This document shows positions 17,174-30,763 of a stretch of DNA of 35,493 bases, piece after piece. How positions within the stretch are numbered: the stretch's first letter is position 1; every line of letters begins with the position of its first letter. The notes beneath the pieces are model-generated. The model was not told where the DNA came from. It did not search any database and worked only from the letters and a program-made list of their open reading frames with translations. The stretch is from an uncultured Desulfovibrionaceae bacterium (GTDB lineage Bacteria > Desulfobacterota > Desulfovibrionia > Desulfovibrionales > Desulfovibrionaceae): contig CALUUT010000092.1 of assembly GCA_944324045.1 (NCBI GenBank), forward strand, positions 1 to 35,493, in the 5' to 3' direction. Made by a program: the position numbers and the translations under genes.

Positions 17174-17564
17174 CGGACAAAATGCGCTGATGCGACAAAG
17201 GATTCCGAATCGCGCGGCCTCTTTTTCAGAGCATGTCTTCTTCGGAATATCAGACGAAAAAAGAGCTCCTGCGCGCCAGCAATAAGGCGGCAAAGCTTCA
17301 AGGCTTTGCGCTTGAGCGGGGTGTGTGCATCTCCTTCCAGACTTTGCACCCTTCATATGCCCCGCGAAAAAAGGCGCGGGGTAGGGCGACATGACCTTTT
17401 GACCTTCGGTCTCAAACTACAGAAGAAAATAGCTGACGAAAAGGCGCGGCATATGTCTTCTGTATGAAAGACAACCCGCGCGCCCTTGCTGGAAGATGCC
17501 GGCATGCTTTTGACTAGCTCCCCAACATGCCGGAAAAAAAGCCGCTGCTTTTTAAGCGGAACGT
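17174..17564. other. 391-bp gap between convergent genes with inverted repeats and a repeat copy
   Basis: No protein gene is supportable here. From left to right: an 8-bp inverted repeat ATTCCGAA/TTCGGAAT (17202-17209 with 17241-17248) enclosing a CTCT/AGAG mini-hairpin; repeat copy A (listed separately); CCGGCATG/CATGCCGG (17499-17506 with 17526-17533); and AAAAAGC/GCTTTTT (17536-17542 with 17547-17553). The last two may terminate the convergent transcripts of the heptose kinase and the MerR-like gene, though the GC content of the final stem is low. Confidence 0.5.
17279..17440 (+). repeat. Dispersed intergenic repeat, copy A (possible structured RNA)
   Basis: About 160 bp that align, by eye at roughly 70 percent identity, with the reverse complement of 30481-30650. 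Shared landmarks in order are GCAATAAGGCGGCAAAG, a CTTTGCG box, CCCCGCG with an 8-nt A-rich loop and CGCGGG, and CTTC-GTCTCAAAC. Hairpins: GCAAAGC/GCTTTGC (17290-17296 with 17303-17309) and CCCCGCG/CGCGGGG (17360-17366 with 17375-17381). The frames contain a stop and a 1-nt indel between copies, so it does not code. No known RNA family was recognised. Confidence 0.75.
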
Positions 17565-30139: not shown

Positions 30140-30763
30140 TGGCGGATATGTGCCACACGTTTTTTTTTGTGCGACAGCAGCCGCAGCGTATGTTTAAAAT
30201 ATATAAAATATATTGATATTATAGATATTTTTTTAAACATATCCTTGTATATTTTGTGCGTTTCCGTATTGGCGGCGTTACGCGCCAGCTTGATGCGCCA
30301 TGGTTTTTTCAACAATACGGCGGCAAAATCTGCGGGATAGCGCTGCATCCGGCCTTCAGGCCGGGACGTCGCACCGCATGCGGAAACATGATAAAATATG
30401 GATGCCTTTTATTGAAAAATATATGTTGGTATTTATTTTAATATATTAATATTAATGATAATTTTTCGAACAATATCCTGTTCGTCAATGAATATGTATC
30501 TTCCTCTGTGGTTTGAGACTGAAGGCCGGAAAGGCCATATAGCCCCATCCCGCGTCTTTTCTCGCGGGGTATCAGATGGACGCAAAGCTTGGGAAGGGAT
30601 ATACATTTCTCCCAAACGCAAAGTTCTTCAGGACTTTGCCGCCTTATTGCCGCCCGGCGGCATATGTGCAAATCATGCTGGATTATTTGTGTATAACTAA
30701 TAAAACACGTTGATATTATTATCATTTTTATAAACATTCGATAGTTTTAACGGAGTGTGCATC
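30140..30763. other. 624-bp AT-rich gap after mutY
   Basis: No gene is supportable. The left part has a T9 tract (about 30161-30169) without a clear GC stem, then an 11-bp inverted repeat TATGTTTAAAA/TTTTAAACATA (30189-30199 with 30231-30241) enclosing an AT-only stretch. CCGGCCTTCAGGCCGG-like bases at about 30350-30364 form a compact hairpin. Positions 30410-30480 are again AT-rich. Repeat copy B (30481-30650) follows, then a single TTATACACA DnaA-box match on the minus strand (30688-30696). The M24 peptidase gene promoter must be near the right end. Confidence 0.5.
30481..30650 (-). repeat. Dispersed intergenic repeat, copy B (possible structured RNA)
   Basis: Reverse-strand copy of the element at 17279-17440, about 170 bp. 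It keeps CCCGCG/CGCGGG with an 8-nt purine loop (30549-30554 with 30563-30568) and the hairpin GCAAAGT/ACTTTGC (30618-30624 with 30633-30639). In copy A the last pair of that stem is C-G, here it is T-A, so pairing is preserved. Short open frames inside it differ between copies by frameshift and are not genes. Confidence 0.75.

Follow-up and report, generated by a model that had tools for sequence, protein, structure and literature searches.

Elements that move by the IS200/IS605 rules insert with a fixed tetra- or pentanucleotide beside one end, carry subterminal hairpins and produce no target duplication (PMC7290912, PMC6006769). PATEs and other ends-only IS200/IS605 derivatives lack terminal inverted repeats and target duplications, have hairpins near their ends, use a fixed tetranucleotide and are presumed to move in trans (PMC7290912, PMC6006769). 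The repeat described here resembles them in all of these respects. It differs in that we found no parent insertion sequence with its ends, that it targets ATGA at start codons and that its target-side end carries a Shine-Dalgarno sequence. REP and REPIN repeats, which are served by RAYT proteins, likewise form many intergenic copies with covarying hairpin stems and, in some species, a GTAG-like foot (PMC3733652), whereas our repeat is a 159-nt unit with a fixed external target, a conserved tail and no linked RAYT. MITEs with terminal inverted repeats, ERIC, BOX and RUP are also small, gene-less and dispersed and show recurrent internal deletions, but the repeat has neither inverted ends nor a target duplication, which rules out a MITE of this type. 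Finally, the TAACTGA repeats of Beggiatoaceae sit just upstream of start codons, where they cover the ribosome-binding region, but they are tandem arrays of a short heptamer and show little Shine-Dalgarno character (PMC4679880); ours is a single long mobile unit, structured and equipped with a Shine-Dalgarno sequence. A literature search confined largely to non-subscription papers returned no description of the element in Desulfovibrionaceae and no report of a mobile repeat between Shine-Dalgarno sequence and start codon. The kind is known, a small non-autonomous mobile element, and what is new is the start-codon target combined with a built-in ribosome-binding end. Overall, we consider it probable that the repeat is a gene-less, non-autonomous mobile element of ~159 nt with IS200/IS605-like insertion rules and its own translation initiation signals.

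The window, meaning the whole 35,493-nt stretch of DNA that was analysed, holds two copies of the repeat, with the following features.

17278–17432, + strand: copy 1, full-length decayed element that starts with its terminal A and stops right at the target (covariance model R1, 149 bits; alignment with genome copies)
17410–17432, + strand: conserved tail of copy 1, TCTCAAACTACAGAAGAAAATAG, in which the Shine-Dalgarno-like AGAGGA has mutated to AGAAGA (sequence compared with the tail consensus)
17433–17436, + strand: remnant of the ATGA target of copy 1, now CTGA (sequence; target defined by empty sites in relatives)
30496–30651, − strand: copy 2, full-length decayed element, its terminal A now G at 30651 (R1, 171 bits; alignment with genome copies)
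30496–30518, − strand: conserved tail of copy 2, TCTCAAACCACAGAGGAAGATAC, with AGAGGA intact at 30502–30507 (sequence compared with the tail consensus)
30492–30495, − strand: remnant of the ATGA target of copy 2, now ATAT (sequence; R1 alignment)

Aligned together with their flanks, the copies reach a mean column identity of 78%, and BLAST pairs them at 75% over about 153 nt (E 3.8e-20). Together with the two R1 scores, this bears out the end-to-end alignment made by eye in the initial annotation, which had also correctly placed both copies in gene gaps and in opposite orientations. Neither copy precedes a gene. With filters off, R1 found no third significant match in the window (next best E 1.3). 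Both copies are fossils, and the interest lies in the family rather than in these two. A segment adjoining copy 2 (30312–30390, + strand, CAATACGGCGGCAAAATC...CCGGCCTTCAGGCCGG) resembles, on visual inspection, a third copy in an advanced state of decay; R1 gave no match there.

The description as a two-copy repeat holds for the window only. The window's own genome (2.55 Mb in 117 contigs) contains about 90 copies (44 BLAST matches; 94 covariance-model matches at E ≤ 0.1), mostly intergenic, and the BLAST and covariance-model searches that had been proposed thus recovered many more copies, there and in relatives. By covariance model, copies occur in 12 of the 288 genomes from this family, Desulfovibrionaceae, and in none of those sampled elsewhere in the order. 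Tail matches with a named host come mainly from Mailhella, Desulfovibrio piger and rumen Desulfovibrio. Scanning genome contigs with a 22-nt pattern gave zero matches; a degenerate 20-mer scan gave 54 stretches, at least two of them by chance (Chryseobacterium, Caldimicrobium). A plasmid or phage repeat was ruled out by the absence of matches in plasmids, phages and IMG/VR. Genome G238, whose sequences are identical with the uncultured Mailhella bin Lapin-011, gave 42 matches; many of them are near-identical, and they come in the 159-nt form and in a recurrent 84-nt form. G180 and G186 have about 76 copies each, and the congeners G181 and G184 three and four. Because many of the copies in the three relatives (42–76 each) are near-identical, their spread was recent, and these copy sets are recent bursts of a mobile element with a dispensable middle. 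Copies in the own genome are old and decayed and no intact Y1 transposase was found there, which makes it probable that the family has become inactive in this host; in relatives it was recently mobile. Many contigs of G180 and G186 terminate within a copy, and the element would explain assembly breaks in such genomes. Local clusters were also seen in the own genome, with about seven copies in 28 kb of contig C105 (L061, L062) and five copies in 10 kb of C20 (L063), the latter all in the same orientation.

The unit of about 159 nt consists of covarying hairpins and the tail GGTCTCAAACCACAAAGGAANNNNNG, and is followed by ATGA. When copies were aligned with their flanks, the left end (A/GCAATAAGG; the slash marks the boundary) and the right end (GAGGAAGATAG/ATGA) were both sharp, with unrelated sequence outside. 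Left-end sequences of the element include AGCAATAATGTAGC and ACCAAGAAGGTAGC. Forms of 84 and 57 nt that lack the middle keep both ends and recur at many sites; the 57-nt form of G180 comprises about 25 nt of the left end, one hairpin and the tail. Terminal inverted repeats are absent, as the two ends are not complementary, and comparison of the flanks revealed no direct repeat between them. No frame is open in all copies, and copy lengths take every value modulo 3, which rules out a protein-coding repeat and agrees with the initial annotation. That annotation had not recognised the repeat as a known family, and Rfam likewise gave no match at the gathering score. It had left the choice between an undescribed RNA and a small mobile element; sharp ends in unrelated flanks, bursts that some species have and their congeners lack, and three gapless empty sites strongly support the mobile element.

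Insertion takes place exactly 5' of ATGA (TCAT on the other strand), without target duplication. For three insertions in G180, the joined flanks match the congener G189 without a gap over 378–380 nt at 87–90% identity. The junction in these empty sites lies directly before ATGA, which is itself present; its position is ambiguous by one base because element and target both start with A. ATGA directly follows 143 of the 158 complete copies, as counted with a finder that allowed five variants. Several native genes start exactly at the terminal ATG, namely gltX, lnt and neuD in the own genome, rsmD and argB in G238, fabZ in Mailhella and rnhA in D. piger, and family profiles for gltX, neuD, rsmD, rnhA and fabZ begin near the first residues of these ORFs. 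Nested insertions were observed at L174 and L197 (G238) and at L246 and L247 (G180), where element A sits behind the tail of a repeat that was there earlier (AAAGGAATTTTTG, AAAGGAATATTTG, AAAGGAATTTTTA, AAAGGAAGTTTAG) and in front of the next ATGA, so that a single start codon took repeated hits. Native gene starts, empty sites and nested copies together identify the terminal ATGA as target rather than as part of the element.

The tail ends in AAAGGA, followed by 5–7 variable bases, G and ATG. Across species and families the distance from AGGA to ATG is constant at 6–8 nt, with variable spacers (AGATAG, AGTAAG, AGCTCAG, AGTTCTG, ACAGTTG, ACTTGCGG, ATTTTTG). In predicted folds AAAGGA is unpaired or, at most, partly paired. 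We scored a copy as gene-linked when an ORF of at least 100 aa, or a shorter ORF open at the contig end, starts from the terminal ATG. By this measure 49 of 158 complete copies (31%) are gene-linked, compared to 12.4% of intergenic ATGA sites, a null that is a rough estimate from few long loci; in the own genome the share is only about a tenth. A Shine-Dalgarno core lies to the left of the element, at a spacing that would have suited the native ATG, in 25 of the 49 gene-linked copies versus 10 of the 109 others (p = 2e-8; background rate 9%). At the level of sequence, this contrast and the tail spacing indicate that, at a start codon, the element separates the native Shine-Dalgarno sequence from the ATG and puts its own AAAGGA 6–8 nt before it. 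Judging from the sequence, from its spacing and from the fact that genes like gltX survive, the host gene is plausibly still translated via the element's ribosome-binding sequence, and start codons may be a tolerated target owing to it.

A transposon that lands at the start of a gene normally harms that gene. An end that resembles a well-spaced ribosome-binding site would turn a dangerous ATGA site into a tolerated one. If this is true, the element offers a testable case of a selfish element that has evolved to spare its host, and in intestinal Desulfovibrionaceae (Mailhella, D. piger) many genes would owe their translation initiation regions to a transposon. We tentatively entertain, at somewhat less than even chances, the broader proposal of a family specialised on start codons, which would insert between Shine-Dalgarno sequence and ATGA, supply a structured leader with a ribosome-binding site and thereby re-wire the translation of host genes (gltX, fabZ, argB, rnhA), perhaps mobilised by an enzyme of unrecognised type.

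A structure of four hairpins plus closing stems pairs 88% of cells in 23 copies from a dozen genomes; it was drawn from one of these 23 sequences, which biases the paired-cell count in the structure's favour. Changes on both sides were found for 17 pairs; no shuffle reached the covariation score, and sliding the partners destroyed the signal. Hairpins 1 and 4, near opposite ends, both covary. For hairpin 1, the two arms read GCAAAGCCC and GGGCTTTGC in G238, GCATGGGCC and GGCCCATGC in G180, GCGAAGCCC and GGGCTTCGC in G186, and GCGTAGCCC and GGGCTACGC in G133. IS200/IS605 elements have a guide tetranucleotide at the hairpin foot that pairs with the target; in the repeat, the conserved TTTGAGACC precedes hairpin 4 on the TCAT strand. 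Since the hairpins covary, single-strand structure, as DNA or RNA, matters to the element. Compared to shuffled sequences, intact copies fold with z-scores of −6.9 and −5.3, and the decayed window copies with −1.3 and −1.8. With own-genome copies as the sole input, RNAalifold gave weak covariation owing to their decay and gaps, and copies from other species had to be added. The count of G.U versus A.C (56 versus 26) was set aside, as the pairing search favours G.U.

Three features of the IS200/IS605 rules are thus present: ATGA beside one end, no target duplication and subterminal hairpins at both ends. On these grounds we think Y1 single-strand transposition most likely, and put roughly even odds on the specific proposal that the element moves as single-stranded DNA via a Y1 HUH transposase acting in trans. 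Insertion directly 5' of ATGA, often at a native start codon, leaves the native Shine-Dalgarno sequence stranded to the left of the element and puts the element's AAAGGA before the ATG; translation would then proceed from there and the gene would survive. Membership in IS200/IS605 is tentative, because no Y1 transposase with the same ends was found in the genomes examined. The Y1 genes of the own genome are broken relics of another IS605, with no intact Y1 found among them, and the Y1 genes in G002 and G238 are bounded by ends of their own that are unrelated to the repeat. There was no Y1 hit in G180 (about 76 copies, 92% complete) or in G034. A search for an autonomous partner covered the sequence upstream of the tail in 13 named loci and 20 contig pieces (G180 and G238) and yielded deletion forms only. 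Beside a broken IS605 tnpA/tnpB pair (L057:1570-1613, contig C45), we noted a 41-nt perfect palindrome, ATGAGGCAGCAAAGCCCTGAAGGGCTTTGCTGCCTCAT plus TGC, derived from the left end of the element. A linked IS605 end was ruled out, as elements of this IS type in G238 carry classical TTGACATCCTCCCC-type ends, and we take the palindrome to be an element fragment that lies beside an IS605 relic.

A second family, B, has a different body of about 180 nt (ATGTTTCAATCCACAGTCGCC...TTTTTG) and has its tail and target in common with family A. Family B accounts for most of the tails in Mailhella excrementigallinarum and D. piger, 22 of 41 family B copies precede an ORF, and the own genome contains single copies at L081 and L092. 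Because the two families differ in body and share one end and the target, these data suggest that both are moved by one enzyme that reads the tail.

The main rival explanation, which we regard as unlikely, is a REP/REPIN-type repeat moved by a domesticated RAYT (TnpA-REP), with hairpins 1 and 2 acting as the REPIN and the rest of the unit carried along. The high copy number is consistent with it, as is GTAG, which lies directly 5' of hairpin 1 in G238, G180, G186 and G133 and is mirrored by CTAC after hairpin 2 in G238 and G133; the closing G-C and A-U pairs of this GTAG/CTAC stem are kept in most sequences. However, the tetranucleotide reads GCAG or GGCG in the own genome. G186 contains intact and broken RAYT-like genes (L230, L235), and the intact gene would suit a REPIN, but the flanks (GGGGAC.../...GTCCCC) are unrelated to the repeat. 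No RAYT adjoins the copies, and neither G180 nor G034 gave a Y1 or RAYT hit. Moreover, REPs are hairpins of 21–65 nt (PMC6006769), whereas this unit spans 159 nt, has a fixed external target and requires a tail at its far end.

Less probable still is another recombinase that leaves no target duplication, for example of the IS110/IS1111 type, guided by the element's own structured RNA. A strongly covarying structure of about 160 nt and precise insertion without duplication would fit such a system, but the recurrence of 57-nt forms without almost all of the structured middle shows that a long guide RNA is unneeded, and families A and B reach the same target with different bodies. A conserved functional RNA, whether a small RNA or a regulator in 5' leaders, that spread by duplication and was retained because it is functional is very improbable despite the covariation and the copies directly before genes such as gltX: orientations relative to flanking genes show no clear preference in the own genome (22/18/18/15 over four arrangements, with a simple gene caller), which argues against a generic regulatory RNA and rules out a terminator or leader RNA, downstream genes have no common function, the empty sites in the congener are gapless, and own-genome copies, including both in the window, decay freely. 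The preferred reading thus remains a mobile element with IS200/IS605-like rules.

Two further observations concern family B. Its start (L119-L171, e.g. L125, L132, L152) reads ATG TTT CAA TCC ACA GTC GCC CCA TCC GCC GAC TGA, an ORF with ten codons between start and stop that directly follows the displaced native Shine-Dalgarno sequence, which could drive translation of a possible short leader peptide; within the family, GTTTCAATCC may resemble the start of some CRISPR repeats. Family B also precedes rnhA at L135, L138 and L154, in Mailhella and two D. piger strains. The left flanks of these three copies differ, as do their lengths (115, 300 and 129 nt), which points either to recurrent insertions at a single start codon or to remodelling of an old copy.
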